Shown here: positions 20,670-38,515 of the stretch, piece by piece | How positions within the stretch are numbered: position 1 is the first letter of the stretch | Layout: every line of letters begins with the position of its first letter | Source: Chloroflexi bacterium GWB2_49_20 | GTDB taxonomy: Bacteria; Chloroflexota; Anaerolineae; Anaerolineales; Villigracilaceae | Assembly (NCBI GenBank): GCA_001796335.1 | Contig: MGMF01000021.1 | Location: forward strand, 124,001-188,000 | Length of the DNA stretch: 64,000 bases | Direction of reading: 5' to 3' | Notes under the pieces: generated by a model | Database searches by the model: none | Seen by the model: the letters and a program-made list of their open reading frames with translations, nothing else | Told to the model about the DNA's origin: nothing | Made by a program: the position numbers and the translations under genes

Positions 20670-20771
20670 TTACGTGCCCTGATATTTGGTGTTATCCAAC
20701 GCCTTGCGAAGTTCTTCATCATTTTCAGCTTTATTGGGTTCTTTTACGTTTTTCATTTCATCCAATATCAT
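20670..20771 (-). CDS. Possible 33-aa small protein downstream of cooC
   Basis: A short open frame begins 9 bases after the stop of the second CooC gene, on the same strand. The predicted peptide is hydrophilic, rich in Lys/Glu/Asp/Asn (KNVKEPNKAENDEELRKAL) and lacks Cys and hydrophobic runs. A second in-frame ATG five codons in has a weak GGA box. The composition looks protein-like, but no homology is recognised and the RBS is poor, so this may be chance. Confidence 0.3.
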   Translation of the reverse strand: MILDEMKNVKEPNKAENDEELRKALDNTKYQGT

Positions 20772-20780
20772 AGATTCTAG

Positions 20781-21566
20781 TTATAGGATCTGATCCATCA
20801 TCTCAGATACTGCCCTACAGACTGGCGAGTTCCCATTGATCTCAACCAATGGCCTCCCATTAAAGTCAAAATTCGTTATTTCTGAATCGGCTGGAATAAC
20901 ACCCAACAATGGAATATCCATTGTCGAAATAAAATCCGCTAATGCTTGATGCATCTCTGCTGGCAACCGGTTAATAATTAAATAAGCATTTTCAATATTA
21001 ATGTCTAATTCTTTACTCATTTCGGCAACGCGCTGGGCGGCAACCAAACCTCTTTGAGTAGGATCGCTTACCACCAAAAGATGTTGAACATCCCTGGTTG
21101 TTCGCCGGCTTAAATGCTCCATTCCTGCTTCATTGTCAATTACGACAAATGCATAATTTTTACTCATAGAATCAATAACTTCACGCAAATTATGATTAAC
21201 TGCGCAATAGCATCCAGAACCTTCACCACGTCCCATGGCGATTAAATCATATCTGGCACCCTCAGATAATGACGAACGGATTTGATAATCAAGGTACTCT
21301 CTTTTGGATTGACCACCAGGCATGACACCCATTGCAGCTCCTCCAGCCGTTAAAGAACTTTTCACCTGATGCAACATATCCTCCCTTATATCGCCAACTG
21401 TCCAATCCAAATCCAATCCAAGCACCATATTCAAATTACTGGATGGATCTGCATCAATCGCCAAGATACTTCCTGACTGTTTTTGTGCGAGATACTTTAT
21501 AACCATACCAGCAATTGTCGTCTTGCCAACACCACCTTTGCCGGCTAATGCTATTGTAGTCGTCAT
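20781..21566 (-). CDS. CooC-type nickel-insertion ATPase (second copy)
   Basis: CooC/AcsF P-loop ATPases load nickel into CODH or acetyl-CoA synthase. The 261-aa product has the deviant Walker A GKGGVGKTT (9-17), the AIDADPSSNLNMVLG switch region and the CxC metal motif at C119/C121 (GSGCYC), which forms the nickel site between protomers. It starts 6 bases after the previous CooC gene. It differs clearly from that gene, so one may serve CooS and the other AcsB; which is which cannot be told from sequence. It ends the recognisable part of the CODH/ACS locus. Confidence 0.9.
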   Translation of the reverse strand: MTTTIALAGKGGVGKTTIAGMVIKYLAQKQSGSILAIDADPSSNLNMVLGLDLDWTVGDIREDMLHQVKSSLTAGGAAMGVMPGGQSKREYLDYQIRSSLSEGARYDLIAMGRGEGSGCYCAVNHNLREVIDSMSKNYAFVVIDNEAGMEHLSRRTTRDVQHLLVVSDPTQRGLVAAQRVAEMSKELDINIENAYLIINRLPAEMHQALADFISTMDIPLLGVIPADSEITNFDFNGRPLVEINGNSPVCRAVSEMMDQIL

Positions 21567-21572
21567 TTTCTT

Positions 21573-22355
21573 TTACCTTTCGAAATCCATCTTCGCAATT
21601 TTTTCTACCATTAATTCCACAGAGTTTTTTAATGCGGGAATATGATCATAAACTGGTATACCCAAACGATCTGCTTCCTGAACAGAAAGATCGGCAGGGA
21701 GGAAGCCAAGAATGGGTATGCCTGGTGTATTCTTCTCAATAAATCTTTCCTCTTCATCTTCTCGAATTTTATTACCCACCAATAACAATCGCTTTAACCC
21801 TATATCATTGGCAAGTTTTTTAATTTGAGCCGCCGTTCCCAGACTTCTACGGGTCGGTTCTACCACAACAATCATCGCATCTACAAAATCTACAGTTGCT
21901 CTTCCAAGGTGTTCAACACCAGCATACATATCTAATAGCAATATCTCGTCTTTCCTAAAAAGGAGGTGCGTAAATAATGTCTTTAGCATGGCCCCCTCAG
22001 GGCAGATACATCCAGATCCACCCATGTCTACCGAACCCATCTCCAGCAAACGAACATTTCGATTAACAATACTGAATCTTTCAGGAATATCATCAACGCG
22101 CGGATTTAAGGTGAAGTAGCCACCTACCATTCCAGGTTTTGCGCCTGTCCTTTCTTCAATCAATTCATCCATTTGAGATATTGGATGCAACAATTCTCTA
22201 AGTGATTCGGGGAAGCCTAAAGCTCCTGCCAAACACGGGGAAGGATCTGCGTCAACTGCCAACACCTGTTTCCCCATATCTGCATATACTTGTGCTAAAA
22301 GGGCGGTGAGGGTGGTTTTGCCAACTCCGCCTTTTCCTGTGATAGCTAATTTCAT
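21573..22355 (-). CDS. CooC-type nickel-insertion ATPase (first copy)
   Basis: This 260-aa CooC/AcsF-like ATPase has Walker A GKGGVGKTT (7-15), AVDADPSPCLAGALG and the nickel-binding CxC at C116/C118 (GGSGCICPEGA). The RBS is AGGAG, 4 bases from ATG. It follows the RlmN-like radical SAM gene by 10 bases and precedes the second CooC by 6 bases. Two paralogous CooC proteins next to both CODH and ACS suggest one per nickel enzyme. Confidence 0.9.
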   Translation of the reverse strand: MKLAITGKGGVGKTTLTALLAQVYADMGKQVLAVDADPSPCLAGALGFPESLRELLHPISQMDELIEERTGAKPGMVGGYFTLNPRVDDIPERFSIVNRNVRLLEMGSVDMGGSGCICPEGAMLKTLFTHLLFRKDEILLLDMYAGVEHLGRATVDFVDAMIVVVEPTRRSLGTAAQIKKLANDIGLKRLLLVGNKIREDEEERFIEKNTPGIPILGFLPADLSVQEADRLGIPVYDHIPALKNSVELMVEKIAKMDFER

Positions 22356-22365
22356 AAGACTCCTA

Positions 22366-23313
22366 TCAAGCTAACGATTGAATCGGATAAGTGTATCCAT
22401 CTGATATCGAATTTTGAGATTGTAAATACTTTAATACATATTGTCCGCAATTGCTGCCAATTTGATTCTCTTCCAATTCACCGATGCTAACAATCACATC
22501 ATACCCGCTCTTGTTCAAACGACTGGTTAGATTGTTCTGTGCCTCTGGCCGACTTGGGTCAATATAAGAAACGAGTCCATTTTTTACTGCCTGGCAGGTT
22601 GGGTTTACAGGGGTTATTTTAATCAAATACTTTTGGGGATCAAAATATTTTAACAACACAGCCTCATCGATAGACATTTTCTCTGCAAGAGCAAAATTGA
22701 GTGTGATTTTTCGGTCACCTGTTCTAAAAAATTTATCGCCATAAACTGCCAGTTGAGCAAAGCCCCATTTTCGAACAGGTATCAACTTATTCCGCTGCGT
22801 CTGGTCGGTTGTATGTAAAGAATATTGAAATTGAAATCTACCATTCTGGTAAAATTTGTTTTTTATCTCCAGCAGACGTTCAAAGAATTTCTCTGATCCA
22901 TACGGAGCTATTGTGGAAATGGAAGGAATTAATCCTGGGGCAGTGTACCGTGAAGGTAATGTTTCCAATACTTCAAGTACGGCAGGGTTAAGAGCAGGCT
23001 CCCCCATTCGAGCAAATTGTATTTTGAATTTTTCGCTCGGTACAATTCGATCGGGAAACCATTTATCGACCAGGTAATCTATTTGTTGCAAGATTTGATT
23101 CGCAGTGGGTTTTCCTTTATATTGGCCACCCGCATCACATATCATACATTTAACCGGACATCCAAATAGAGTCGATACCATCAAAACCCATCGTTCGTCT
23201 CGGGTGAACGGTGGTTGAAGTGCCTCGACAAATTCTACGATTTTTTCGTCTCCAAAGTCAGCCATATAAACAGTTGCAATTTTCGAATCTCCGGTTTCTG
23301 CAAACACTCTCAT
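22366..23313 (-). CDS. RlmN-like radical SAM protein in the CODH/ACS locus, lacking one catalytic Cys
   Basis: The 315-aa protein aligns by eye with the RlmN core. It has cluster motif GCPVKCMIC (C52, C56, C59), a G-E-P segment ARMGEPALNP, and the C-terminal methyl-carrier Cys289 in GSNCGQYV. The position of the second RlmN catalytic Cys (in RlmN, L-C-V-S-S/T) is Met45 here (LMVST), and the N-terminal RNA-binding helical domain is missing. It is therefore probably not an rRNA methylase. It sits in the operon between a flavoprotein and the CooC genes, with its ATG directly after the upstream stop (TAAATG, GAGG RBS). A cofactor- or protein-modifying role is inference. Confidence 0.8.
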   Translation of the reverse strand: MRVFAETGDSKIATVYMADFGDEKIVEFVEALQPPFTRDERWVLMVSTLFGCPVKCMICDAGGQYKGKPTANQILQQIDYLVDKWFPDRIVPSEKFKIQFARMGEPALNPAVLEVLETLPSRYTAPGLIPSISTIAPYGSEKFFERLLEIKNKFYQNGRFQFQYSLHTTDQTQRNKLIPVRKWGFAQLAVYGDKFFRTGDRKITLNFALAEKMSIDEAVLLKYFDPQKYLIKITPVNPTCQAVKNGLVSYIDPSRPEAQNNLTSRLNKSGYDVIVSIGELEENQIGSNCGQYVLKYLQSQNSISDGYTYPIQSLA

Positions 23314-24201
23314 TTAGCGCCTCATTAATATTTGGTTATGGATCTTCATTGCCGCCTTTATCCCATCACCTGCAGCTATTGATGCTTGTCTGTAAATACC
23401 ATTTTTGACATCACCAACCAATAAGCAGCTGTCTTTGCTCATTAATGGGTCTACAAAGTCTAATTGCGGATCTCTCCCAATTGCTAATACAATTTCGTCG
23501 CATTCGAGCGCGAATCTTATATTTTCGCTGTTCGTGCACTGGACTAGTAATGAGTCGTTTATATCACCCCTATTCGATGGCAATAGGTCAATATTTTGAA
23601 CATCTGTATCACACATGTACGTGATCATATTATTTGAAAATGCCCTATCAGCCAGTAGTTGAAGTGATTTTAATTCTGAACCTCGATTTAAGATTGTAAC
23701 TCTATTTCTTTTTGAAAGATTTAATGCATAGTCAAAAGCTGCGTCCCCGCACCCAATGATAATAATATGTTTTTCGATTTGTTCTAATATTCCTTTGATG
23801 TCCTGATGAACTTTTCTGCGCACTTTTTCAGAAAGAGCAAAAGGAATAGGTTTTGGCTTAGTACCAGATGCTATTACAACAAAATCTGAAATGAATATTT
23901 CCGCATCACTGCTCATTATGTATTGAGCATTCATGTATTCTAATCGCTTTATTTGTAATTTTGTTATCCTAATGTCCAGTTTCCGCAAATGTTTTTCCAA
24001 CAAATATATCAATTTTGGGCCACTGATTCCATTCGGAAATCCGGGATAATTTTCAATCAGGTTTGCATTCCACAACAAACCGCCCATATTATCCATTTCA
24101 AACAATCTCGGTTCATATCCCAACCTCTTCAACTGAATAGATGTTGCGACACCACCGGGACCTGCTCCAATGACAGAAATCTGACTATATTCCATATGCA
24201 T
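23314..24201 (-). CDS. Thioredoxin-reductase-like FAD/NAD(P) oxidoreductase without redox disulfide
   Basis: The 295-aa flavoprotein has two Rossmann domains: FAD-binding SVIGAGPGGVATS at the N-terminus and NAD(P)-binding IIIIGCGDAAFD near residue 165, plus the C-terminal FAD motif LLVGDVKNG. Architecture and length match thioredoxin reductase, but the CxxC redox pair before the second Rossmann motif is absent. It therefore resembles the ferredoxin/flavodoxin-NADP reductase branch. The ATG at 24201 overlaps the upstream stop (TAATG); a second ATG lies two codons in. Inside the CODH/ACS locus it may move electrons between NAD(P)H and ferredoxin, but this is inferred. Confidence 0.8.
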   Translation of the reverse strand: MHMEYSQISVIGAGPGGVATSIQLKRLGYEPRLFEMDNMGGLLWNANLIENYPGFPNGISGPKLIYLLEKHLRKLDIRITKLQIKRLEYMNAQYIMSSDAEIFISDFVVIASGTKPKPIPFALSEKVRRKVHQDIKGILEQIEKHIIIIGCGDAAFDYALNLSKRNRVTILNRGSELKSLQLLADRAFSNNMITYMCDTDVQNIDLLPSNRGDINDSLLVQCTNSENIRFALECDEIVLAIGRDPQLDFVDPLMSKDSCLLVGDVKNGIYRQASIAAGDGIKAAMKIHNQILMRR

Positions 24202-24851
24202 TACGCTGGTAGTAATTCCTGACAAAGAACCGGTCTCGCAAAACCATGCGCTAAGGTAATCAAAGCTGCCATGTGCAATCTTTCTGAATAAGTTGCGGTT
24301 CCGTCGACAGTAAAAAAAACTTCATAATCTTGCACAAAGGCTGACCGGGCTGTTGTCTCACAGCACAAATGAGTCATGACACCGCAAATTACGACTTGCT
24401 CAATATGATCTTGTTGCAGCAATTTGTCGAGTGATGTTTCCCAGAACGCATCATAGCGCTCTTTATGGATTATTGTACCTTTTGTTGAATCGATCTCATC
24501 GATCAAAGATGACATGTCCGAATTTATTTCCAACAATTCTTTCCACCACACTGCCATCATCCCAGCTGTTTCATGATTATTACTGTGCCTGGAAAAATAG
24601 ATGGGTTGTTTCTGGGCTGTAAATGCTTCTATTAGCGATTGAACGTTTGAAATGATTGCCGGAGCACTTGGTATGAAAGCATGGGATTCAATCGAAAAAA
24701 AATATTTCTGCATATCAAGGACAAGCAATGCTGCCTTTTTAGAATTATATTTTATGTTTGCGTGCGATAATCCTAATGCGCAAATACTCTCCAGCATTCG
24801 TCTGGACTTCCTTTCGATTGTATTTGCGGTAAAGAATGCTTTTTTTTCCAT
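24201..24851 (-). CDS. Cysteine hydrolase, isochorismatase-like
   Basis: This isochorismatase-fold protein (216 aa) has the usual Asp-Lys-Cys triad: Asp in LLVLDMQKYFF, Lys in IIHKERYDAFW and Cys in GVMTHLCCETTARSAF. Family members cleave amides or vinyl ethers of small molecules such as nicotinamide, N-carbamoyl compounds or isochorismate. An N-terminal extension of about 38 residues precedes the core. It is the middle of a run of overlapping accessory genes in the CODH/ACS locus, and its link to that pathway is unknown. Confidence 0.82.
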   Translation of the reverse strand: MEKKAFFTANTIERKSRRMLESICALGLSHANIKYNSKKAALLVLDMQKYFFSIESHAFIPSAPAIISNVQSLIEAFTAQKQPIYFSRHSNNHETAGMMAVWWKELLEINSDMSSLIDEIDSTKGTIIHKERYDAFWETSLDKLLQQDHIEQVVICGVMTHLCCETTARSAFVQDYEVFFTVDGTATYSERLHMAALITLAHGFARPVLCQELLPA

Positions 24852-24868
24852 AATTATTGCCCGAATCC

Positions 24869-25510
24869 TTATTCATTGAGGTGTTTAAGGATTTTTTGCG
24901 TAAGCATACTGCCAAGAATAGCGCAAGCGTCGGTCGGAAGGAATTTACTCACTGATGAATCAAAAAGGATTTTACAACTGGGTGGAAAATCTTCATCCCC
25001 ACACCAAAAAACAACAGCCAAAGGTACTTTTGGTAACGCAATAAATTTGTAGGATGCATTGCCAACTTCCATAGGCGATCCGTTCAATTGAATCGCAACC
25101 TTGGAATATCTATTTATATCGGTCTCGATTGAAGAAGCCAATTTATTACCTGTATAATCCTGAAAGGCTTGGTTGTAAAATCTGCCTCCCGGAAGCTCGG
25201 CAAAGGATTCCCATTTTCCGGGAGACATATCGATATCATAAATTGCAGTAGTAGCCAGGTAATAGCATACTAATGCTTGAGATGATGTATTTAGGATAAT
25301 TTCATCATCCTTTTTATATGCGATCAATTGAGGGTATTTGATTTCAACGGCAATTTCAAATATCGATAACGAAAAACATGAAGCACCAGAATTTTCGTTG
25401 TACTCCATTCCACATCGTAACGCAATTCCTTTTGGGTCTGCCATGTCAATTATACTTAATTTTAATTGATCGATCTTGTCCTGCAACATTATTTCACTTT
25501 CTTTACTCAT
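24869..25510 (-). CDS. DUF3786-domain protein
   Basis: This 213-aa protein resembles DUF3786, a domain found in anaerobes near corrinoid and Fe-S enzyme genes. Recognisable segments are IDMADPKGIALRCGMEY, LVCYYLATTA, SFAELPGGRFYNQAFQ and VVFWCGDEDFPPSCKILF. The ATG at 25510 is preceded by GGAG at 7 bases and overlaps the stop of the HdrC-like gene by 8 bases; a GTG 30 bases upstream is rejected. The function of DUF3786 is not known. Location implies a helper role for CODH/ACS or MetVF. Confidence 0.75.
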   Translation of the reverse strand: MSKESEIMLQDKIDQLKLSIIDMADPKGIALRCGMEYNENSGASCFSLSIFEIAVEIKYPQLIAYKKDDEIILNTSSQALVCYYLATTAIYDIDMSPGKWESFAELPGGRFYNQAFQDYTGNKLASSIETDINRYSKVAIQLNGSPMEVGNASYKFIALPKVPLAVVFWCGDEDFPPSCKILFDSSVSKFLPTDACAILGSMLTQKILKHLNE

Positions 25511-25820
25511 CCATTTGCTCCAAAGTCTTCGGGTTCTCACGGATCATTTTTTCTTTTCGTAATGAAAGCATCACTTTTTGCAGGTTTAATTGCTGAGTGC
25601 AAGCTTTCCTTGCAATATCTAAAGCGATATCATCCCAAAGCATCTTACTTGATAGTATATCCTCATCGTTCATTAAGATAAGCTGTACAAAGCTTCCATA
25701 AGAAATATCCGCATCCCGGGGAGTGACCAAATCACAGGCCAGGCATCCGCGACATTTTCGCAGGTCCTGGCCTGTTGATTCTAAAATTATTTTCCGTAAT
25801 GGCTGCTTAGAATTCGTCAA
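25503..25820 (-). CDS. Degenerate HdrC-like small protein
   Basis: The 105-aa protein follows the plan of heterodisulfide reductase subunit C: a first cluster motif CRGCLACD near residue 23, then a typical D-x-x-x-x-x-F-V-Q-L stretch and ILSSKMLWDDIALDIARK. In HdrC the W is followed by C-x-x-C-x-x-C-x-x-x-C-P; here those cysteines are gone apart from one, and the first motif has lost its fourth Cys. It could bind at most one unusual cluster. The start is TTG overlapping the end of the GNAT gene. Next to MetVF it may be a relic or adaptor of a MetFV-Hdr electron-transfer complex (inference). Confidence 0.6.
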   Translation of the reverse strand: MTNSKQPLRKIILESTGQDLRKCRGCLACDLVTPRDADISYGSFVQLILMNDEDILSSKMLWDDIALDIARKACTQQLNLQKVMLSLRKEKMIRENPKTLEQMDE

Positions 25821-26373
25821 CTTTCACTTTCAGAGGCATTACCATCAATTTCACATCAATGGTCTCTCCATCTGGAAACATAAAGTAATCATCCAGCGCG
25901 CATTGTTGTTTAAAGCCCATCGTCTCAAAAGCTTTTATTAATTTTACATTTTCAGCTATTACTTCAGCTATCAGGATATGCAACCCTTGCTTTCGTGCAA
26001 TATCGACAACCGTTCTTAACATTTTCATGCCTAAACCCCGCTTTCGAAAATCTTTCGTTAGAAAAATCCTTACTTCACCAATATGCCTTCTTGGACCTTC
26101 GCCTAAATGGAGGGTGGCATTTCCGACAGGGTGTTCCTTAACTAAAGCCAAAATCGGGATTACACTATTGTAATCAAGCTTTTCAATCCAGTTTCGTATT
26201 ACTTCCGGGTCTTTGACATTATGCCTGAAATAACGGAGATCATCGCCATTGATCGATGAATATAGATCTGTTAAAAGACTTTGGTCTTCGTTTGTCAACG
26301 GGCGTAGTAGAATTCGGGCTCCATCCGCAATCGTTACGATTTCTCGAAAATTCTTTAGCTGTTCAGGCATCAT
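25807..26373 (-). CDS. GNAT-family N-acetyltransferase
   Basis: This 188-aa GNAT fold protein transfers acetyl from acetyl-CoA to an amine. Acetyl-CoA-binding motif A is visible as RKRGLGMKMLRTVVDIA, with preceding beta-strand VRIFLTKDF and the N-terminal ILLRPLTNEDQSLLTDLYSS typical of RimJ/RimL-type and metabolite acetylases. The RBS is excellent (TAGGAGGCAAG). It follows metVF by 43 bases and overlaps the HdrC-like gene. The substrate is unknown; protein acetylation linked to acetyl-CoA supply is only a guess. Confidence 0.85.
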   Translation of the reverse strand: MMPEQLKNFREIVTIADGARILLRPLTNEDQSLLTDLYSSINGDDLRYFRHNVKDPEVIRNWIEKLDYNSVIPILALVKEHPVGNATLHLGEGPRRHIGEVRIFLTKDFRKRGLGMKMLRTVVDIARKQGLHILIAEVIAENVKLIKAFETMGFKQQCALDDYFMFPDGETIDVKLMVMPLKVKVDEF

Positions 26374-26416
26374 CTTGCCTCCTACTCACATACGATATCA
26401 TATCAAATTATTCAAA

Positions 26417-27877
26417 TTATGCAGCTGGTTGAACAAATCCTTCTGGCAAAAGACCTGCTTCCGTCACCAGGCGTGGCACAATTTCTTCCCATCCAACAGC
26501 CATTATGTGTAAACCATTTATACCTTGAATTTTGCGAATTTTTTCGACAAGCTCAAGGGCGATTGTCAGACCTTCTTCAGCTGCTCCATCGCCTGCTTTT
26601 TCCATGCGCTTGAGGAGTGGGTCTGGAATAAACACACCCGGAACTTCGTCGTTCATATATGTTGCCATTCTTAGATTCTTAAGCGGCGTAATTCCGACCA
26701 GGATGTAAACCTTGTCTAAGATATTTCTTTTAGCCAACTCATTTAACCAGATTTCCATACCATCTGCATCGAACACAAGGTTAGTCTGAAAGAATTGAGC
26801 TCCTGCATTTACCTTTTTATGCTCACGGATAGCTTGAAACCGTGGATCGGATGCAAAAGGAGATGCGGCTGCGCCCAGGAAGTATTTTGGAGGAGTTTTT
26901 ATTTCACGACCATCGAGATACTTTCCTTCATCGCGGATGCGTCGCAATATCCAAAGCATCTGAATTGAATCCAGATCAACGATGTCCATCCGACCTCGAG
27001 GAGATGGAGACATGCTCATACTATCTCCTGAAAGGCAAAGAATATTCCTCACACCCAGATTGTACGCTCCCATAACTTCTGCCTGTAGCCCAACTCTGGT
27101 TCGATCTCTTGCAGCGATTTGCATGACGGGTTCTGCGTTTTGTTTGATCGCAGTAGCTGAACAGGACCAGGAAGACATTCTGGGGGTAGCTGAAGGGCAA
27201 TCAGTAAAATTAATTGCAGCCACATACGGCTTAACCAATTCGATATTACTGATCAACTTCTTGGTTGCAATTGTTACTGGAGGGGCAACTTCACTTGTAA
27301 CGACAAACTGACCAGCTTTTAATCTTCTTTCCAACTCTGAAACCGGCTCGTCATATTTTGCTGGATGGTAATCAGAATCCCCTGCCCACCACTCAGGTTG
27401 TCTAACCGGGCGAAAAACAAGGTCCCAAGTAGTCGTCCTCTTTACTGGGTCGCCAGAAATGAGACCAGAAATGACTTTTCCGGTACCAACTTTCTTAACT
27501 TGCCTGGTAACATCCCCCCAGGTTTCAGTCCCAACCTTTTCCCAATCCAATGGAGGTAAAACTTCCAGCAACATTTCTTCACGTCCCATTTTAAAAGCAC
27601 GGTCATAGATCTCATACCACATACAGGGTCTTGTTTCGTCTACATAGCAATGCTCTGGGGTCGAACCCCCGCAGGGGCCATTTCGCACACCTTTTGGACA
27701 TTCCATTGAGCAAATAAATGCAGTTTCCTGAAGAAGGCAATTTCCACACATTCTGCAGCCAAATAATGGGCCCTTTACGGCTTTTTCAAGAGATGCCAGA
27801 GCTCTTTTACCAAATTTTTCTCTTTTGAATGGCATAAATGGCGGTTGCCATCGACGACCTGGTGTGAATATAGGCAT
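26417..27877 (-). CDS. MetV-MetF fusion: methylenetetrahydrofolate reductase with N-terminal Cys-rich domain
   Basis: The C-terminal part (about 175-486) is MetF, which reduces 5,10-CH2-THF to 5-CH3-THF on the methyl branch of the Wood-Ljungdahl pathway (FAD barrel; FVVTSEVAPP, AINFTDCPSATPRMSS, LCLSGDSM). The N-terminal ~110 residues match MetV, a separate subunit in many acetogens, with eight cysteines (C41, C44, C47, C56, C60, C69, C77, C85) that bind zinc and/or Fe-S. Here both are on one 486-aa chain. The RBS is GGAG at 7 bases. The gene lies between acsE and the GNAT. Confidence 0.9.
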   Translation of the reverse strand: MPIFTPGRRWQPPFMPFKREKFGKRALASLEKAVKGPLFGCRMCGNCLLQETAFICSMECPKGVRNGPCGGSTPEHCYVDETRPCMWYEIYDRAFKMGREEMLLEVLPPLDWEKVGTETWGDVTRQVKKVGTGKVISGLISGDPVKRTTTWDLVFRPVRQPEWWAGDSDYHPAKYDEPVSELERRLKAGQFVVTSEVAPPVTIATKKLISNIELVKPYVAAINFTDCPSATPRMSSWSCSATAIKQNAEPVMQIAARDRTRVGLQAEVMGAYNLGVRNILCLSGDSMSMSPSPRGRMDIVDLDSIQMLWILRRIRDEGKYLDGREIKTPPKYFLGAAASPFASDPRFQAIREHKKVNAGAQFFQTNLVFDADGMEIWLNELAKRNILDKVYILVGITPLKNLRMATYMNDEVPGVFIPDPLLKRMEKAGDGAAEEGLTIALELVEKIRKIQGINGLHIMAVGWEEIVPRLVTEAGLLPEGFVQPAA

Positions 27878-27919
27878 ATCTAATCTCCAATTATTTCATT
27901 ATTTTCTTGCTTCTACACA

Positions 27920-28843: not shown

Positions 28844-28883
28844 GGTTATTTCCTTTCTCCGCATTAACGGAATTAAATCCTGA

Positions 28884-30818: not shown

Positions 30819-30830
30819 AAAAACCAATTA

Positions 30831-30908
30831 AGAGCGATTGCGAATGATTTGTCCATGATTCGATCATACATGGTGCTAATTCCAAAGAAATCATTATACA
30901 ATCGCTCT
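30831..30908 (-). ncRNA. 78-nt structured intergenic RNA element between acsC and RACo gene
   Basis: Outer 10-bp stem AGAGCGATTG (30831-30840) with CAATCGCTCT (30899-30908), a small internal loop, an 8-bp stem AATGATTT (30843-30850) with AAATCATT (30888-30895), and an apical hairpin CCATG/CATGG. It fills the gap between the acsC stop and the RACo start. A TTTTT run lies 7 nt past the stem on the transcribed strand, so partial termination or 3'-end protection of acsC mRNA is plausible. This is a structural call only. Confidence 0.6.
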
Positions 30909-30914
30909 ATGAAT

Positions 30915-32240
30915 CTAAAGCGCATGCTTCAAGAAAGAGGGAATGTCAACTGCTTCGCGAGGTCCTACACGAATCTCCCACCCTGGAAGCTCTTCTTCGA
31001 CTTCGCCAGAAAGCACAGCAACATGGCCAGGAAGAACCAATTGTTTCTTTGTTACTTTATCAGAAATTCCAAATTCTTTTACAGATTTTGCTATCCTTTC
31101 AGAATCAAATTTTCCGGCAGCCCAAGCTGTAAGAACACTCATACCCTCGGCGTCTGTAACCAGTAACCAAACTGGTAGTCCAGATCCTTCCACTTCGTTT
31201 GCTACGCTGAAATATGTAATGCTAAAGTTTGTTGTGACCAATACCGGGCTATCAGCTTTTGGCGAATTAATTTCATAAATCCCGGGTTGAACTTGAATTG
31301 GTTTTTGAGGATCTGTATAAATGTTTTGGCGTAACACAAGCAGAGGATAAAACAAATCTGGTGCGAAGCGATCAAGAACAATAAAACCGGAATATTTTCC
31401 TATCGCTTGTGCGGCCTCAATAGCGTCCTGGCCATCATGGCCATTGGCAAAAGTTATGGATGGGAAACCCAGCGTGCGAAAGTTTTTCTTTATTGCCAAT
31501 CGGCGGATTTGTGTTGATTTTGCCAATCGATTTCCCAAATGCCCTAAACCGAGATCCAATACAAGATCTTCACAACCTTTTACTTTTAGTTTTTCAGTTA
31601 ACCCAGCCAAATCATCAAGGCTTTCGCCTGCTACCACCAGAGATGTCGAGTATTTTTTAGCAATATCAGCCATCGCTTCCCAATTAGCCTCATTCGCAGC
31701 ATAGACCAATGGGTTTTCTCCGCTTAGGTTATCCAAACCAGATTTAATCGCGAATTCATTCCCTATAAGTATCAGCGGTCGTTTGGTAGCTGAGCGAACA
31801 GCCTTAATTGCTTCGGTAAAAGTAGCTTCTTCGTCTGCTTCGACCGCAAATCCATCAACAACCAGATCCATACCAACATAATTTACTTTATATGCATCTG
31901 CTTTGGTAACCAGATCTTTTATTGCTTCAACTCCCAAACTGGATTTCACACGAACGAACAATCCGGGCCTGTTAAAAAATGTTTTTTCATGCCGGAACAT
32001 TACAGTTTCATTTCCAGCTTTAACTTCCAAACCTCCAGCTTTCACAGAAATCAACCGAATAGGAGGTGCGGAAGATTCAGCAAGCTGGGTTTTGGATCCT
32101 TCACTAACATAAGGGCAAGCAGAAAGCTCCACTTGTTTTGCAGCTAATTTCATAGCAAAGGCCAGACAAGTTGGAAACCCACATTCTTTGCAATTGGTCT
32201 GCGGGAGCAACTTATAAATTTGAATACCTGAGAGTGCCAT
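30915..32240 (-). CDS. acsC: Corrinoid iron-sulfur protein, large (gamma) subunit
   Basis: The CFeSP large subunit binds cobamide at its C-terminus and a [4Fe-4S] cluster at its N-terminus, carrying the methyl group between AcsE and AcsB. The 441-aa product shows the cluster motif C17-x2-C20-x4-C25-x16-C42 (TNCKECGFPTCLAF), a TIM barrel, and the C-terminal corrinoid-binding region with LLVTDAEGMSVLTAWAAGKF. It starts 13 bases after acsD. The stem-loop downstream separates it from the RACo gene. Confidence 0.95.
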   Translation of the reverse strand: MALSGIQIYKLLPQTNCKECGFPTCLAFAMKLAAKQVELSACPYVSEGSKTQLAESSAPPIRLISVKAGGLEVKAGNETVMFRHEKTFFNRPGLFVRVKSSLGVEAIKDLVTKADAYKVNYVGMDLVVDGFAVEADEEATFTEAIKAVRSATKRPLILIGNEFAIKSGLDNLSGENPLVYAANEANWEAMADIAKKYSTSLVVAGESLDDLAGLTEKLKVKGCEDLVLDLGLGHLGNRLAKSTQIRRLAIKKNFRTLGFPSITFANGHDGQDAIEAAQAIGKYSGFIVLDRFAPDLFYPLLVLRQNIYTDPQKPIQVQPGIYEINSPKADSPVLVTTNFSITYFSVANEVEGSGLPVWLLVTDAEGMSVLTAWAAGKFDSERIAKSVKEFGISDKVTKKQLVLPGHVAVLSGEVEEELPGWEIRVGPREAVDIPSFLKHAL

Positions 32241-32253
32241 ATTATTTTCTCCT

Positions 32254-33216
32254 TTAGGCCATTAATAATTCTTCTATCGCATATTTCACGCGTTTTACAC
32301 TCTCGGGGTGACGCAGAACAACAATGTCAGCACCGGTTTGTATCAACGAAACCGCTGTTAATGTTTCCCAATTGATGGATCTTTCCTTCCAATCCCCCCA
32401 TGATCCTGGGACACCTTCGCCAACTTTGGCTTCTTTTGTTTTCCATGCCTCAAAGCCGGGTGTTACTATCATCGGAAACTGTGTCATGGTATCTCCTTGC
32501 AAAGCTGCTAATCTAAGCCGCTCCATTACAGAATATCCATATTCGATACCATAGCCTAAAGCACCCGTTGTTGGGTCCATCAAAATTCTGTCTGCAGGCA
32601 TTCCCATATCCGTGATTAAAATATTCAATTGTTTTGAAAGGTTTACATCCATTGGTGTCCGCGCAGTTACGAGATGTCCATTTGCCATCGCTGTAGCGAC
32701 AATAGTCCTATAATTCTTGTCTTCACAAATTCCCAATACAATTCTTTCACCTTTGGTGGCTTCTGATATGGGTACCAGGAGCTCATTATCTAAATCCACC
32801 TGTCCAGGTCCAAATACGATAAGGGGTAATCCACAAGCACCTAAAACTTTTTTTACTGTACCTACTGCCTTTTCAGGTGTGGTTGGGTTTCCATTTTCGT
32901 CATTTACGCTCAAGGCTAGAACAATAATATCCGCTCCAGCATTTTCTGCTGCTTTTGCCCACTCAGCTGGATCCGTCATTGCTGCTCCCCAAACTTCCGC
33001 CAGCAAAAGCGACCAATCTTCTGGTTTATGATCTTTGATCTCAATCGCAACTACTGGCTTGTGAGGGACTGGCGCTTCAAATTGCAAAAAAGGCATGGTA
33101 GTTTCGCCACCAAAAGTCACAGTTTTGGAACGTGTGCCTCCTTCCCCATTCGTTGCGCCGAGGGTTACGGTATGAATAGTACCTGGCCATTTATCTTTTG
33201 GAATTTCTATTGGCAT
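32254..33216 (-). CDS. acsD: Corrinoid iron-sulfur protein, small (delta) subunit
   Basis: The CFeSP small subunit (320 aa) forms a TIM barrel that caps the cobamide of AcsC. Typical segments are TVTFGGETTMPFLQFE, PVVAIEIKDHKPEDWSLLL, WAKAAENAGADIIVLAL and RILMDPTTGALGYGIEYGYS. The N-terminal strands before the barrel match the family. It is placed between the CBS protein and acsC, with a 6-base gap from the CBS gene, so all are co-transcribed. Confidence 0.95.
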   Translation of the reverse strand: MPIEIPKDKWPGTIHTVTLGATNGEGGTRSKTVTFGGETTMPFLQFEAPVPHKPVVAIEIKDHKPEDWSLLLAEVWGAAMTDPAEWAKAAENAGADIIVLALSVNDENGNPTTPEKAVGTVKKVLGACGLPLIVFGPGQVDLDNELLVPISEATKGERIVLGICEDKNYRTIVATAMANGHLVTARTPMDVNLSKQLNILITDMGMPADRILMDPTTGALGYGIEYGYSVMERLRLAALQGDTMTQFPMIVTPGFEAWKTKEAKVGEGVPGSWGDWKERSINWETLTAVSLIQTGADIVVLRHPESVKRVKYAIEELLMA

Positions 33217-33222
33217 AATTAT

Positions 33223-33744
33223 TTACTCCTCTCTTTTATTTGAGATACTCAGGCGAGCAGCATCCCTTTTTTCAATGAATATATCAAGCGATAATCTTCT
33301 TTCTGCATCCAAACCCAACCCCAATAAATCATGGTCTTCATTTGCCGCAAGATGAATCAAAATATTCTTATATGAAATATATGCTGCTGGATATAAGACA
33401 CCTCCAGAATGGTGCATAAGGAGGTAAGTGCGAATGTTATTATCGAGCATCATCTGGACAGCAACTCCAATAGAGATGTCTGGTGGAATTTGAGGAATAC
33501 TTTCTTGCATAACTTCCAAAGCCTTCAAACTATCTGGCTTTTCCTTTGTATATGCCTGTAAGAGATCGAATTGCGAGACAACACCAATAGCATTGCCATC
33601 TTCAGGATTAAGCACAATTATCGCATCCAAATCCTTTGAGAGCATTGTTCTTGCAATATCTGCTACAACTGTATCGGGGGCACAAGTCGCCACTCCAATT
33701 TTCATTAAATCCCGTACAAGTTCGCGTAACCGATTCAATGGCAT
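33223..33744 (-). CDS. Tandem CBS-domain protein within the acs operon
   Basis: The 173-aa protein consists of two CBS motifs (about 14-72 and 78-135: APDTVVADIARTMLSKDLDA, IGVVSQFDLLQA, IPPDISIGVAVQMMLDNNIR) and a short charged tail. CBS pairs bind AMP, ATP or SAM and act as energy sensors. It stands between acsB and acsD, 6 bases before acsD. The context suggests a nucleotide-responsive regulator of the CODH/ACS complex, but no enzymatic domain is attached and this role is inferred. Confidence 0.85.
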   Translation of the reverse strand: MPLNRLRELVRDLMKIGVATCAPDTVVADIARTMLSKDLDAIIVLNPEDGNAIGVVSQFDLLQAYTKEKPDSLKALEVMQESIPQIPPDISIGVAVQMMLDNNIRTYLLMHHSGGVLYPAAYISYKNILIHLAANEDHDLLGLGLDAERRLSLDIFIEKRDAARLSISNKREE

Positions 33745-33820
33745 TCCAATCTTACCCTATGCATCATCAAAATATTCAGGGAGCAGTATTTATAAATATA
33801 TACGCGCTTTACCTGACTGA

Positions 33821-36088
33821 CTAGAACATGGGATCCAGGACAAGAGCTGGGTGGTTATGTTCCTCCATCCATGCAAGCAAATCATCGACGGTGCTCGCAC
33901 AACTATCATCAGCTATTTTACTGATCAAATCCGAATCGCCCTCGCGAAGAGCAACGGCTTGTAATTCATCAGCCATCGTCTCCTTCAAAACTTTACTCAT
34001 CCACACTACACGCTTGAAACCTCCCTCGGCAGAGATGAATTTCGGGCTGATCAAATAGAATTTTCCTACTCCCATCACTCCCGGTGTTTGCAATCCGCCT
34101 CCTGCAATACCAGCTAGAGTGGAAAATGTCATTCCAGCAGGCGTCATGCTCGTATCTTCGCGGCTGACAATCATTACACCATTTGCTTCAGGAATCAACA
34201 TGACTATGCATTCAAAACAACCACAAGCGGTCATGGGGTTTTCCATAATCGAATACATGGCTACTTCGTTCACCACATCGTGAGAGCCAATTTTTGCATA
34301 ATCATTTGTGCCTTCCCAATACCCTTTGACCATGTCAATGGATCTACCCAATTTTATGGGTTGGTTGGGTCCGGTTGGGTTGATACTGAAAGAGGCTTTG
34401 CAATCCAACCAATTATATGCACCGCATAATCCAAGTCGCTGTGGGCTTACAACACAGACATGATTTGGTGCGAATGATTGGCAAAGTGTACATGAATAGA
34501 ATTCATCAACTTTATCATCTGTGAGGTCTGCAAGCCTCTTATTTCTGAAGTCATAAGCATCTCGCGCTTTTAATAACCATTCCTGCACTTTTTCAGGTTC
34601 TGAATAGATCGTCACCTGGACTTTATCGACAATTGCACCAAAATCTTCATGAAATCGCGCATGTAGTATCTTGCCAAAATGCTCCAGGCTAAAACCTTTA
34701 TCTGCCGCGCCATTGGATATTCGGATCCAAGCGATATCTCTCTGTCCGACGTGCTGGATTCCTGATGCGCCGTTTACAAAGTAGTGAATTTGTCTTTCTA
34801 AAACAGGCTCGAAATCCTGCTGCATTTGGCGTCCAGCAACTTTTATAACTATTCCAAGATCCATTGATCCCTGGAGTGGAATCTCACCAAAGCCATTGCC
34901 TACAACTTCGATTTTTCCGTCGGTTACTTCTTCCAGTTTTGCCATATGCAAATATTCGAAACATCGTGAGTACTTTCCACCAAATTCAACTCGTAAATCC
35001 GTTTTCCGAACAACTTCACCCTCAAAAGCAGATCCATAGGGTACAGGAACTGGTACATTGGATACTTTTACTTTTACGCCTCTCACTTCAATGCATTTCT
35101 GCACCAGACGTTCTGCTCGCTCCAGATCATCTTTTCCATCTATCTGATCAAACGGCATACTTACAACGTGCTCGTAGGTTGTTACGCCGGTAGGTAGGAT
35201 TTCCGGAATAACAGTATCAGCTATTACGGGGAAACCGAAATTTATTGCTCCGGCAGCGGCTGCATATTTTAGATCATCAACTTCCCCCAAAGCCAAAACA
35301 AAAGCAAACACGCGCTCTTTATTGTACAAAAGGATTTCACGAGCCATACCTGGTTTTAGACCACCGAAGGTCAATGCGGACCGTGTTGCAAAACCGAGGG
35401 CATAGATCGCACTCAGGGTATCAGTTCCAAATGGAACTGTATAGGTGTCATACCCTAATTCGACACCTTCTTCATTCAATTGATGAATAATACTTCTCCC
35501 GTTAACATTACCAGACAGAAATGTCAAAATATTACGTTTTTGAAGTTCGCGCACAATCTGAACTGCTACTTCGTTTGACTTGGCACACCCAACAATAGCT
35601 GCAAAACCCGGCATGCGGCCATCTACTAATTGAATACCCCAAGAACGGAGTTGAATGTCATCAATTGGGCCATTTAAATGCCCGATTCCATTTGTACCAC
35701 CATACGATGTTCCCCCAGCCAGGTGAAATCCCTCCATTTTTTCAGGTTGTAAACCATATATAAAACGAACGGCTTCGATAACTTCTGCAGCAAGCAAAGT
35801 TGCCATTCCACTATCAAGGGTCTCTCCCAAATATGGAGTCCACTTGTTGACTGCAGGTAACGGATGCAACAAATCGCGAGCATGCTCAAGCGCTGATTCC
35901 AATTGGCCTAAAGTTTCTACAGATTGACCGGTCATACCAAGTATAGTGGGCATGAAATATGCTGTATTTGGAAATTCTACTTTTGTTTCAGCCCCTTTTT
36001 CTTGGATAGCTTTTCGAAGCATAAGTTCTGCTTCGGTAACAAGTGCGGATGCACCGCGTATAGCTCGAGTGGCAATATAACGTGACAT
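33821..36088 (-). CDS. acsB: Acetyl-CoA synthase (CODH/ACS alpha subunit, bacterial type)
   Basis: AcsB joins CO, the methyl group from CFeSP and CoA to give acetyl-CoA at the nickel A-cluster. The 755-aa product keeps the N-terminal domain that docks on CODH, as in bacterial enzymes. A-cluster ligands are visible: C533, C536 (YSCTLCQSF), C545, C555 for the [4Fe-4S]/proximal Ni, and C622-G-C624 (TACGCFECIV) for the distal Ni. It starts 17 bases after cooS. The 76-bp gap before the CBS gene holds no clear signal. Confidence 0.97.
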   Translation of the reverse strand: MSRYIATRAIRGASALVTEAELMLRKAIQEKGAETKVEFPNTAYFMPTILGMTGQSVETLGQLESALEHARDLLHPLPAVNKWTPYLGETLDSGMATLLAAEVIEAVRFIYGLQPEKMEGFHLAGGTSYGGTNGIGHLNGPIDDIQLRSWGIQLVDGRMPGFAAIVGCAKSNEVAVQIVRELQKRNILTFLSGNVNGRSIIHQLNEEGVELGYDTYTVPFGTDTLSAIYALGFATRSALTFGGLKPGMAREILLYNKERVFAFVLALGEVDDLKYAAAAGAINFGFPVIADTVIPEILPTGVTTYEHVVSMPFDQIDGKDDLERAERLVQKCIEVRGVKVKVSNVPVPVPYGSAFEGEVVRKTDLRVEFGGKYSRCFEYLHMAKLEEVTDGKIEVVGNGFGEIPLQGSMDLGIVIKVAGRQMQQDFEPVLERQIHYFVNGASGIQHVGQRDIAWIRISNGAADKGFSLEHFGKILHARFHEDFGAIVDKVQVTIYSEPEKVQEWLLKARDAYDFRNKRLADLTDDKVDEFYSCTLCQSFAPNHVCVVSPQRLGLCGAYNWLDCKASFSINPTGPNQPIKLGRSIDMVKGYWEGTNDYAKIGSHDVVNEVAMYSIMENPMTACGCFECIVMLIPEANGVMIVSREDTSMTPAGMTFSTLAGIAGGGLQTPGVMGVGKFYLISPKFISAEGGFKRVVWMSKVLKETMADELQAVALREGDSDLISKIADDSCASTVDDLLAWMEEHNHPALVLDPMF

Positions 36089-36105
36089 AGTCTAGTCTCC
36101 CGCAG

Positions 36106-38118
36106 TTAATCAGCTGCTGTACCGTAAATAGCTTTACGTTGCTCAGACAGCGGAAGTTCTTCCAAGGCAAGCATTTTTGCATCCCCGCTCCGCCCGTACT
36201 TCGTTGCATCATATACTTGGATTCCGAGTGCTGCGCGCTTTGCATCGATATGTGCCAGTGTGGCTTTGATCATCTCATCTGGATCTGAGATAAATTCGAG
36301 TTTGCCGCCATATAATTTTTCCCAGCCGGAACTTATATAATTTAGGACTTTATCGCTATCCGACACCCGATCCGGCATTCCACTAATAGGTGAGGAACCT
36401 CCAAAGATTACGTACGCCCCGGATGCAACACAATAAGCAGCAATTGCAAGGGCTTTTTCGCTCATCCATTCAGGTGCTAATCCAACTGCAGGTACTTGAT
36501 CAATATCATCCCCCAAACCACCTTCTTCAACCATCTGGGTAAGTACGGTAAGAATACGGGTATTGTCAACACATGATCCCATATGAAGGACGGGAGGGAT
36601 TCCTACAGTTTCACAAATTTCGCGTAAACCTGGCCCAACTTCAGTTAGTCCGGCTTCGCCTAACATCAAACCAAGCTTTGCGCTTGCGATTGCTCCGCAG
36701 CCAGTTTGGACCACCAAAACATCCTGTTTAAGCAATGCTTTCGTCACATAATTGTGAAGATAATCCTGACTTGACCTTGGATTATTACAACCCACTATTG
36801 CAGCGACACCACGAATACGCCCTGAAATGATCGCATCGTTCAGAGGACGGAAAGATGCCCGATAAGTACCACCTAACATATAGTTGATATATTCGTGTGA
36901 AAAACCTGGGATCAAGTCTTCGGTAATTTGTGGGATTTGAGTCTTACCACGGTTTTTGTAATTGTCGATAGCTTCTTTAAGAATATTCTTGGCTATGGTT
37001 AGCGCCTTGTGTTCGTCGAACTCTATGTGTGTAGCACCGGTGATTCTCACTTTCGGAGAAGTGGTAATAACCTTGGTGTGAAATTTTGAAGCCAGGTCTA
37101 CTAATGCTTGCATAACACACTGGACATCTACCACCATTGCTTCAACAGCACCAGTGATTATGGCTAATTCTTGGTGTAAAAAGTTACCCGCTGCCGGTAT
37201 TCCCTGTCGAACAAGGATTTCGTTAGCTGTGCAACAAATACCAGAAAGGCTTATTCCTTTCGCACCGGCTTGTTTGGCATACTCAATAATTTCTGGATCC
37301 TGTGAAGCCGCTACAATCATCTGGCTAAGAGTGGGTTCATGCCCATGTACGATAACATTTACCATATCATCTTTAAGCACACCTAAATTGGCTTGGCCGA
37401 GGATAGGAGCAGGGGTTCCAAATAGGATATCTGAAACATCCGTAGCAATCATTGATCCACCCCATCCATCAGACAAACCTGTGCGGATGGCATGTTGTAG
37501 AATATGCTCATAATTCTGGTCATCACCGATATGGGTGCGGTGTAGCGCTTCAACAACTTCTCTGTCTATACCACGAGGAACAACACCATTTTCACGCCAG
37601 ATTTTCAATCTTTTTTTCGGCGCTCGAACAGTCGGGATAACCTCTCCACGCTGTTGTCCAAATTGAGCAATATATAAGTCAGCTAATTCATTGGCAATTT
37701 CTTCAGGAGATCTTTTTTCAATTGGAATATTATATTTTGATGCGATTATCCGCAGTTTGGCTACATCACGAATAGTGTAACCTTCGGTTTCACCATTCGC
37801 AACGGCTTTTAAAGTGAACGCCATATCTCGGCCATGATCCGAATGGGCTGCAGAACCTGCAGCAATTGATCTAATAAAATTCCTTGCTTGGATTGTGTCA
37901 ATTGTTGCCCCACACACACCTACCTGTCCTTCTTTTGTTAACCTGCAAGGTCCCATCCCACATTGCTTGCAACACATACCCGCACCGCCAATATTACAGG
38001 GTGCCATCGCATCTGCGCGTGAAAATGCGGTTTCAATATGCAATTCTTCTGCACGAATAAGCATTTGTTGTGCGGCAGGATCAACGCTTTGTTCTTGTGG
38101 AGTACGTTTCGATGCCAT
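36106..38118 (-). CDS. cooS: Anaerobic carbon monoxide dehydrogenase, catalytic subunit
   Basis: CooS/AcsA reversibly reduces CO2 to CO at a Ni-Fe-S C-cluster. In this 670-aa product the N-terminal Cys set for clusters D and B is C41...CCKQCGMGPC (C49, C50, C53, C58, C69). C-cluster ligands appear in order: His in VIVHGHEPT, Cys in SGICCTANEIL, VDVQCVMQ, VGCNNPRS, QTGCGAIAS and MGSCVDNTR. The start ATG 38118 lies one base after the stop of the upstream HMA-like gene with GAGG before it; the frame extends further but would overlap that gene fully. It is followed by acsB. Confidence 0.97.
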   Translation of the reverse strand: MASKRTPQEQSVDPAAQQMLIRAEELHIETAFSRADAMAPCNIGGAGMCCKQCGMGPCRLTKEGQVGVCGATIDTIQARNFIRSIAAGSAAHSDHGRDMAFTLKAVANGETEGYTIRDVAKLRIIASKYNIPIEKRSPEEIANELADLYIAQFGQQRGEVIPTVRAPKKRLKIWRENGVVPRGIDREVVEALHRTHIGDDQNYEHILQHAIRTGLSDGWGGSMIATDVSDILFGTPAPILGQANLGVLKDDMVNVIVHGHEPTLSQMIVAASQDPEIIEYAKQAGAKGISLSGICCTANEILVRQGIPAAGNFLHQELAIITGAVEAMVVDVQCVMQALVDLASKFHTKVITTSPKVRITGATHIEFDEHKALTIAKNILKEAIDNYKNRGKTQIPQITEDLIPGFSHEYINYMLGGTYRASFRPLNDAIISGRIRGVAAIVGCNNPRSSQDYLHNYVTKALLKQDVLVVQTGCGAIASAKLGLMLGEAGLTEVGPGLREICETVGIPPVLHMGSCVDNTRILTVLTQMVEEGGLGDDIDQVPAVGLAPEWMSEKALAIAAYCVASGAYVIFGGSSPISGMPDRVSDSDKVLNYISSGWEKLYGGKLEFISDPDEMIKATLAHIDAKRAALGIQVYDATKYGRSGDAKMLALEELPLSEQRKAIYGTAAD

Positions 38119-38119
38119 T

Positions 38120-38515
38120 CTAATTAACCTCATTTTCATTTTTAATTGGGCCCATACCTGGGCAAGGCCATAAAGGGCGACCGTGTTTACCAATATTTTG
38201 TGCAAAACCAACTACCAATTTTGTTTGTGAATACGCTGCTGTATGTCGCAAGTAAGTTCCTGTGCTTTCCCCCGAGCTTTCTGCCTTTTCAGATTCTATC
38301 CTTGTCAATAACTCCCCTAAATATCCTGCATCATCCAATTTTACCTGTAATTCCAGGTCATTTATTTTATTTTCATCGTATTGAATTTCAATGATCCTGA
38401 ATCCGCTGCTTGCATAGACATCCTCGACACCCGGTGTTTCGAACATTATACGGCGAACTTCAGTTACATGATGATCTCCGTATAATGCAGGAAGTTCAAA
38501 TATTTTCGTCTTCAT
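38120..38515 (-). CDS. HMA-like small protein, first gene of the CODH/ACS locus
   Basis: The 131-aa protein has an N-terminal ferredoxin-like fold resembling heavy-metal-associated domains (LPALYGDHHVTEVRRIMFET, VEDVYASSGFRIIEIQYDE, LDDAGYLGELL), but the CxxC metal motif is absent. The C-terminal 50 residues hold a single Cys in GRPLWPCPGMGPI and look disordered. The RBS is strong (TTTGGAGGTG). With the cooS ATG one base after its stop, it is probably made with CODH. A nickel or protein-docking role is possible but unproven. The 181-bp region upstream (38516-38696) shows no promoter I can assign with confidence. Confidence 0.75.
   Translation of the reverse strand: MKTKIFELPALYGDHHVTEVRRIMFETPGVEDVYASSGFRIIEIQYDENKINDLELQVKLDDAGYLGELLTRIESEKAESSGESTGTYLRHTAAYSQTKLVVGFAQNIGKHGRPLWPCPGMGPIKNENEVN

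Follow-up and report, generated by a model that had tools for sequence, protein, structure and literature searches.

Organization of the locus

We examined a stretch of 64,000 nucleotides (hereafter the window) from Chloroflexi bacterium GWB2_49_20 (GenBank assembly GCA_001796335.1, contig MGMF01000021.1, positions 124,001 to 188,000), which carries an extended Wood-Ljungdahl operon with the genes for carbon monoxide dehydrogenase/acetyl-CoA synthase (CODH/ACS). The main interest of this operon is a DUF3786 protein, a close companion of CODH/ACS; a set of three genes next to it is a separate finding. Translation and family matches placed 17 open reading frames (ORFs) on the minus strand between 20781 and 38515, with the genes for an HMA-like protein and cooS first and two CooC ATPases last. 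The 5' part of the run reads HMA-like, cooS, acsB, CBS-domain pair, acsD, acsC, acsV, acsE, and a metVF fusion, and is followed by a GNAT acetyltransferase, an HdrC-like protein, DUF3786, an isochorismatase-type hydrolase, a thioredoxin-reductase (TrxR)-like flavoprotein, an RlmN-like radical SAM protein, cooC2, and cooC1. All of these genes except the one for the CBS-domain pair had been named in an earlier reading made from the letters alone (the sequence-only reading), and the family matches agree with the identities given there.

Overlaps and short gaps had already been noted in the run; by the listed ORF ends, no gap between neighbors exceeds 87 bases, and because of this spacing a single transcript of 17 genes is plausible. 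Promoter-like sites (46 versus 47.8 expected in shuffled sequence) and terminator-like sites (17 versus 15.5) showed no real excess and therefore neither support nor break the operon. The span first proposed for the locus, 20670–38515, holds at its upper end; at the lower end the operon stops with cooC1 at 20781 rather than at 20670. The segment downstream, 20670–20756, contains just one 28-codon ORF, which was rejected as a gene as it was not seen by eye downstream of cooC1 in 13 relatives. A structured terminator below cooC1 was also rejected, its fold being no better than those of shuffles. The operon is followed by guaB, and a CAP/LysM-like gene (identified by eye) lies upstream in divergent orientation. 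Several of the TTG and GTG starts of the listed ORFs are probably too early, and the true start of cooS likely lies inside its listed ORF.

DUF3786 co-occurs with CODH/ACS

The distribution of the accessory genes was examined in three draws of genomes. The draw from the phylum contained 400 genomes, of which 50 matched the acsB model (NF040764); the draw from the family contained 152, of which 54 matched; and a draw of 198 Desulfobacterota, the phylum of a Syntrophaceae genome, contained 128 with a strong acsB match and 70 without. DUF3786 (PF12654) was found in 41 of the 50 acsB-bearing genomes of the phylum draw, one of them below the Pfam cut-off, and in none of the other 350. In 25 of the 41 carriers no more than 20 kb separates its gene from acsB (median 2.4 kb), and the link extends over 28 genera with differing gene orders. 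Two genomes (G048 and G263) have two copies of each gene, and every DUF3786 copy is about 1.5 kb from an acsB. Within the family, DUF3786 occurs in 37 of 54 genomes with acsB and in 2 of 98 without, and in one of these two (G420) the contig also holds a truncated cooS and an HMA gene. Among the Desulfobacterota the corresponding counts are 107 of 128 and 12 of 70; 12 of 140 acsB matches in that draw were weak and counted as negative, and counting them as positive gives DUF3786 in 108 of 140. Fisher values for these associations, about 1e-19 to 1e-47, overstate the evidence, as the genomes are related and not independent.

The neighborhood of DUF3786 was then read in 20 loci of the family and class, including that of the window. 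In ten of these loci cooC2 adjoins DUF3786 directly (L033, L225, L229, L230, and L233–L238), and in eight of the ten HMA-cooS-acsB begins on the opposite strand. The hydrolase, TrxR-like, and radical SAM genes (the trio) lie between DUF3786 and cooC2 in six loci, and the remaining four have no adjacent cooC2. Two of these four are G422 and, where the contig ends, G479; in G405 (L231) DUF3786 is near cooS and no cooC was found beside it, and in G096 the hydrolase and DUF3786 stand together near cooS, with the TrxR-like gene, the radical SAM gene, and cooC2 about 27 kb away. Ten loci of other families have DUF3786 behind acsC or acsE (L200–L202, L205–L207, and L209–L212). Fusions were found as well: DUF3786 is joined to the PF04060 Fe-S domain in two ORFs of the Desulfobacterota draw (L263 1450–2337 and L260 1060–2055), and a single ORF (L210 7304–8437) combines it with a NuoE-like 2Fe-2S domain of the thioredoxin fold. 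A DUF3786 copy in a genome without acsB (G509) is on an ORF that scores best with acsC, perhaps another Fe-S fusion. The AcsC of the window has an N-terminal CxxCxxxxC motif that by eye resembles this PF04060 domain. DUF3786 itself showed no cluster-type cysteine motif in its alignment.

Taken together, the fusions and the neighbors (CooC, acsC or acsE, and metVF) would point to a role of DUF3786 in metal-cluster or redox biogenesis around CODH/ACS. Several observations weigh against this assignment. DUF3786 is on a contig other than that of acsB in 16 of the 41 carriers of the phylum draw, and it is dispensable, being absent from 17 of 54 acsB-bearing genomes of the family (some of them near-complete) and from 9 of 50 in the phylum. 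Two controls, Methanosarcina acetivorans and Methanocaldococcus jannaschii, matched the acsB model and not DUF3786. Desulfobacterota carry up to seven copies, 12 of their genomes have DUF3786 with no strong acsB match, and one of 12 further trio-bearing genomes (G530) has it with no acsB match. No PDB entry is clearly related to the predicted structure (predicted local distance difference test, pLDDT, 86, from seven sequences), which hence indicates no chemistry: the best Foldseek E value was 0.058, the best VIA-align hits (Z 7.1, AMPK/KA1 domains, 81–90 residues) were within the range of chance, and PDB sequence searches with the DUF3786 and HdrC-like profiles gave nothing, or E values of 0.4 and above. 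Finally, DUF3786 follows metVF in five loci (L203, L208, L213, L214, and L227), which a function in the methyl branch fits equally well.

This last point belongs to the alternative that survives best, namely that DUF3786 repairs AcsCD or MetVF or activates them reductively, and thereby serves the methyl branch or the corrinoid protein and not nickel-cluster biogenesis. The loci in which it follows acsC, acsE, or metVF and its fusions to the PF04060 and NuoE-like domains agree with such a function, but in the ten loci of the window's family described above it adjoins a CooC ATPase with no trio between them (metVF and CooC neighbors were not counted over all carriers), and we regard the methyl-branch role as rather unlikely. 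A CODH/ACS biogenesis factor is the assignment that we prefer for DUF3786, tentatively and at slightly less than an even chance. To our knowledge, the assembly of the nickel-iron-sulfur clusters of CODH/ACS is only partly known, and a protein that is confined to acsB-bearing genomes in the phylum draw and strongly associated with acsB in a second phylum could offer a direct handle on it. PF12654 was not mentioned in the subset of open-licence literature searched, and DUF3786 appears there a single time, in one paper whose title concerns another subject. As a side observation, a stand-alone Lrp/AsnC ligand-binding domain adjoins DUF3786 in two loci (L083, at 6715–6996, and L088); in another (L091) such a domain is beside the trio, and no acsB was found there.

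A free-standing three-gene cassette

The sequence-only reading had proposed that the six genes from the GNAT to the radical SAM protein form one accessory module for maturation of, or electron transfer to, CODH/ACS or MetVF, and had named their scattering in related genomes as the outcome that would speak against it. After 37 of 55 genomes of the family draw with weak radical SAM matches (at most 34% identity) were dropped as carrying other radical SAM proteins, 18 trio carriers remained, six of them with no acsB match, including G420, whose cooS is cut by the contig end. In four of the six the trio is intact (G064, G427, G468, and G472) and in one only the TrxR-like and radical SAM genes are present (G428); cooS alone was not searched in these genomes. 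A search for the radical SAM protein in one genome per species across 84,980 species confirmed 413 loci, and the best 80 were analyzed further. Within these 80 loci the TrxR-like gene is present in 75 and the hydrolase in 65, some of the remaining loci being contig ends, and a CooC-like gene is present in seven, DUF3786 in six, and cooS in three. Most of the 80 have no CODH/ACS gene within 10 kb. Because a third of the family carriers, six of 18, lack an acsB match and few of the 80 loci have a CooC-like gene or cooS, the trio is not specific to CODH/ACS. By record titles, the 80 loci come from Chloroflexota, Eisenbacteria, Zixiibacteriota, Acetothermia, Aminicenantes, Thermoplasmatota, and others, and the nearest named relatives with the trio are uncultured Anaerolineales. 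Among the 12 further genomes with the radical SAM protein, acsB was found in five and not in seven, and DUF3786 was found in five, four of which also have acsB.

DUF3786, hydrolase, TrxR-like, and radical SAM genes occur in this order in eight genomes of the family, the window among them; G367 and G459 have gaps of about 1.0 and 1.6 kb within the row. The next gene is cooC2 in six (the window, G367, G404, G397, G420, and G459), and no cooC was seen in G422 and G479 (contig end). In a tree of 56 radical SAM sequences, from the window and 55 of the 80 loci, all eight copies labeled CODH-linked fall in one clade of 13 with a support of 99, together with five unlinked copies, and the CODH-linked label requires five changes on the tree. 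This pattern would fit one recruitment followed by losses, although it is no proof of it. The only CooC-adjacent case outside that clade among the best 80 loci is a distant one from Syntrophaceae (L116 4211–5933), labeled as unlinked on the tree, in which the radical SAM gene lies 10 bases before a CooC-like ATPase gene, beside trpE/trpG-like genes and with neither of the other two trio genes.

A single six-gene module would account for the ordered DUF3786-trio blocks, for the gathering of CODH-linked copies in one clade, and for the Syntrophaceae arrangement, but it is an improbable reading. The intact trio occurs in genomes with no acsB match, acsB was not found in most of the further genomes with the radical SAM protein, few of the best 80 loci have CODH/ACS genes nearby, and GNAT, HdrC-like, and DUF3786 genes do not travel as a block with the trio. 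What stands of the six-gene proposal is the linkage of these last three to acsB, with 42 of 45, 38 of 39, and 37 of 39 carriers in the family draw having acsB, nearly always within 20 kb where the contig is shared; the trio is separate and, across many phyla, free-standing.

The radical SAM protein of the window has invariant cysteines C52, C56, and C59 (45 aligned sequences) that form the CxxxCxxC motif of the superfamily, and its score with the Pfam Radical_SAM model is 15.6 bits, below the cut-off of 29.5. Its predicted structure (pLDDT 92) is closest to RlmN and Cfr (Foldseek TM by query 0.59–0.71). Class A methylases of the RlmN/Cfr type use two catalytic cysteines. Here the C-terminal one, Cys289 in a Cys-Gly-Gln, is invariant and the second aligns with a residue other than cysteine; RlmN itself was rejected as the identity, the score being 42 bits against an equivalog cut-off of 290. 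The TrxR-like flavoprotein has no CxxC in 17 aligned sequences or in its alignment to 2q7v, which sets it apart from thioredoxin reductases. Isochorismatase-like hydrolases have an Asp-Lys-Cys triad, and the hydrolase retains it: among 24 aligned sequences K130 and C163 are invariant, and 90% or more have D46. As a guess from these residues, the trio might modify a small molecule, the flavoprotein serving as reductant. Clustering of the neighboring ORFs of the best 80 loci revealed no further specific partner among the 45 largest clusters listed. The largest of these after antisense shadows and CODH/ACS genes, judged by eye to be an ATPase like those of ABC transporters and touching 17 of the 80 loci, was set aside as a common family. 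No description of the trio, and nothing on Chloroflexi together with acsB, was found in the open-licence literature subset. The trio appears to be a well-conserved, uncharacterized system of many bacterial phyla and of Thermoplasmatota archaea.

GNAT and HdrC-like genes at the MetVF end

The GNAT, searched with E values up to 1e-25 only, was found in 45 of the 152 family genomes; of the 42 with acsB, 34 have the GNAT within 20 kb of it and eight on another contig. The HdrC-like gene has 39 strong carriers, four of 43 genomes having been dropped for weak matches, and in the 38 with acsB it lies within 20 kb in 31, at 20,060 bases in one, and on another contig in six. The two genes are a median of 12 bases apart in 33 of 34 genomes that have both. 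At least one of GNAT, HdrC-like, and DUF3786 is present in 50 of the 54 acsB-bearing family genomes and all three in 23; two near-complete genomes with acsB (G424 and G425) have none of them at the thresholds used. That this linkage is only the shared ancestry of one Anaerolineales locus, with no functional meaning, as the relatedness of the family genomes, the variable gene order, and the occasional gene losses might suggest, is very improbable given the DUF3786 link in many genera and a second phylum in different gene orders and the GNAT homologs in acs loci of other families (L041 and L045, 40 and 45% identity), the HdrC-like evidence covering one family only.

The best PDB relatives of the GNAT include protein acetyltransferases (3f8k, 4u5y, and 9isq), with a phosphinothricin acetyltransferase (1yr0) ranking second. 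In Clostridium ljungdahlii, formate dehydrogenase is under the control of lysine acetylation by At2, a GNAT of a single domain (PMC7439476); a figure legend there names codH/acs with the other enzymes of the pathway, which by itself does not show it to be acetylated. For C. autoethanogenum, too, an effect of lysine acetylation on the pathway is discussed (PMC11370222). With a GNAT linked to the operon, feedback of acetyl-CoA on the Wood-Ljungdahl pathway would become testable.

The hallmark of HdrC is two CxxCxxCxxxC motifs, which the HdrC domains aligned here, four from HdrCB fusions beside metF in related loci, also show. The HdrC-like protein retains one CxxCxxC and has lost the second motif, and a Pfam search with its family returned nothing useful. 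Family matches revealed no hdrA or mvhD among the 17 ORFs of the operon. One genome (G441) has both the HdrC-like and the HdrCB-type form. In five other loci (L273–L277), hdrA-like, mvhD-like, metV, metF, and hdrCB genes, whole or in part, follow acsE in the region where the window has its fused metVF, and one of these genomes (G443, L275) has both types of methylenetetrahydrofolate reductase.

Enzyme core and feature list

Matches of cooS and acsB exceed curated cut-offs, and the catalytic CODH and ACS subunits are thus present (Table 1). Each of acsC and acsD exceeds the cut-off of one model, and acsV and acsE have the expected families as best matches below the cut-offs. The names cooC1 and cooC2 are presumed from context, as no family model names CooC. 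The HMA-like protein has no Pfam match at E values up to 0.1; Gly-Asp-His-His (GDHH) aligns with the metal-binding CxxC of metallochaperones, which it lacks, and might suit a metal other than copper. Its gene is conserved beside cooS across the family loci read, where the protein, with the GDHH and a PLWPCPG tail, precedes cooS and is a possible nickel chaperone. A malic-enzyme-like gene was seen by eye within the CODH/ACS operon of several relatives (L083 2222–3622, L032, L035, L037, and L039).

Table 1. Genes of the Wood-Ljungdahl operon in the window, in order of transcription
Feature	Position	Strand	Basis
HMA-like protein, first gene	38120..38515	-	profile matches HMA domains in PDB; CxxC replaced by GDHH; tail with PLWPCPG
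cooS / acsA, anaerobic CODH catalytic subunit	36106..38211	-	TIGR01702 595 bits, cut-off 478
acsB, acetyl-CoA synthase	33821..36088	-	NF040764 947 bits, cut-off 800
CBS-domain pair protein	33223..33744	-	PF00571; between acsB and acsD, likewise in family loci
acsD, corrinoid protein small subunit	32254..33216	-	NF003376 382 bits, cut-off 280
acsC, corrinoid protein large subunit, 4Fe-4S domain	30915..32240	-	NF003195 528 bits, cut-off 306
acsV / RACo, corrinoid activator	28884..30827	-	NF040756 660 bits, nearly full length, below strict cut-off 800
acsE, methyltransferase	27920..28864	-	best families, below cut-off: NF005719 213 bits (259), NF040758 176 bits (370)
metVF fusion, N-terminal MetV-type domain and MetF	26417..27877	-	PF12225 and PF02219, single ORF
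GNAT acetyltransferase, Pat-like, CODH/ACS-linked	25807..26373	-	PF00583
HdrC-like protein, single CxxCxxC, linked to GNAT and MetVF	25503..25820	-	alignment with HdrC domains, neighboring loci
DUF3786 protein	24869..25540	-	PF12654 138 bits, cut-off 27
isochorismatase-family cysteine hydrolase, cassette gene 1	24201..24851	-	PF00857
thioredoxin-reductase-like flavoprotein without CxxC, cassette gene 2	23314..24225	-	PF07992
RlmN/Cfr-like radical SAM protein without N-terminal domain, cassette gene 3	22366..23313	-	family score, alignment, predicted structure
cooC2, CooC-type ATPase	21573..22355	-	PF01656; adjoins DUF3786 in relatives
cooC1, CooC-type ATPase, last operon gene	20781..21566	-	PF01656

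A three-unit operon

We are confident that the locus is composed of three units. The first is the enzyme itself (HMA-like, cooS, acsB, CBS, acsD, acsC, acsV, acsE, and the fused metVF), with the Pat-like GNAT and the degenerate HdrC as a coupled pair at its MetVF end. At high acetyl-CoA the GNAT may modify one of the operon's own enzymes by acetylation, and the HdrC-like protein may dock MetVF to an electron donor. The second unit, DUF3786-cooC2-cooC1, forms in many relatives a mini-operon of its own that points away from HMA-cooS-acsB. It would be a biogenesis module, in which nickel is loaded by the CooC ATPases and DUF3786 helps in the assembly or the quality control of a metal cluster of CODH/ACS or of the corrinoid protein. 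The third unit is the trio, which we take to have entered between DUF3786 and cooC2 in the clade of the window. The complete reading, including the biogenesis role of the second unit and the insertion of the trio, is one that we favor by a small measure. The gene order, the co-occurrence and neighborhood patterns, the domain fusions, and the retained or missing motif residues are observed directly, whereas all biochemical roles named here are inferred. More tentative again, and less probable than the assignment of DUF3786 to biogenesis as such, is the fuller proposal that DUF3786 is an undescribed factor dedicated to CODH/ACS biogenesis or quality control, working together with CooC and, in certain phyla, bearing an AcsC-like Fe-S domain of its own, and that the trio was recruited in one Anaerolineales clade. 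Of the functions first suggested for the accessory genes, maturation would thus suit DUF3786 and the two CooC ATPases, and electron transfer or a link to MetVF is possible for the GNAT and the HdrC-like protein; neither extends to the trio.

Comparison with known systems

The TrxR-like protein shares the FAD/NAD(P) fold of low-molecular-weight thioredoxin reductases, by profile, but the redox CxxC of these enzymes is missing in its aligned members. Similarly, the radical SAM protein shares with RlmN and Cfr the fold, the CxxxCxxC motif, and the C-terminal Cys-Gly-Gln, but it has no N-terminal domain, and it has another residue where Escherichia coli RlmN has the cysteine that the alignment places seven residues ahead of the first cluster cysteine. 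The GNAT resembles Pat-type protein acetyltransferases, several of which are among its best PDB relatives, in its GNAT domain with R-x-x-G-x-G; it differs in being single-domain, with no CoA-ligase or cAMP domain, and the likeness is one of sequence relation only. The MetV and MetF domains recall the Moorella-type HdrABC-MvhD-MetVF complex, but in the window they are fused, the operon has neither hdrA nor mvhD, and the small HdrC-like protein is missing most of its ligands. The related loci with hdrA-like, mvhD, metV, and metF genes and an HdrCB fusion after acsE resemble the hdrABC-mvhD-metVF cluster described for DscP3, with its hdrB-hdrC fusion. CooC participates in CODH maturation (PMC11247825). 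Like the CODH/ACS operons of acetogens and other Chloroflexota, the window keeps cooS, acsB, acsC, acsD, acsE, acsV, and CooC-type ATPases together; to these it adds the HMA-like, CBS, GNAT, HdrC-like, and DUF3786 proteins and an inserted three-gene cassette.

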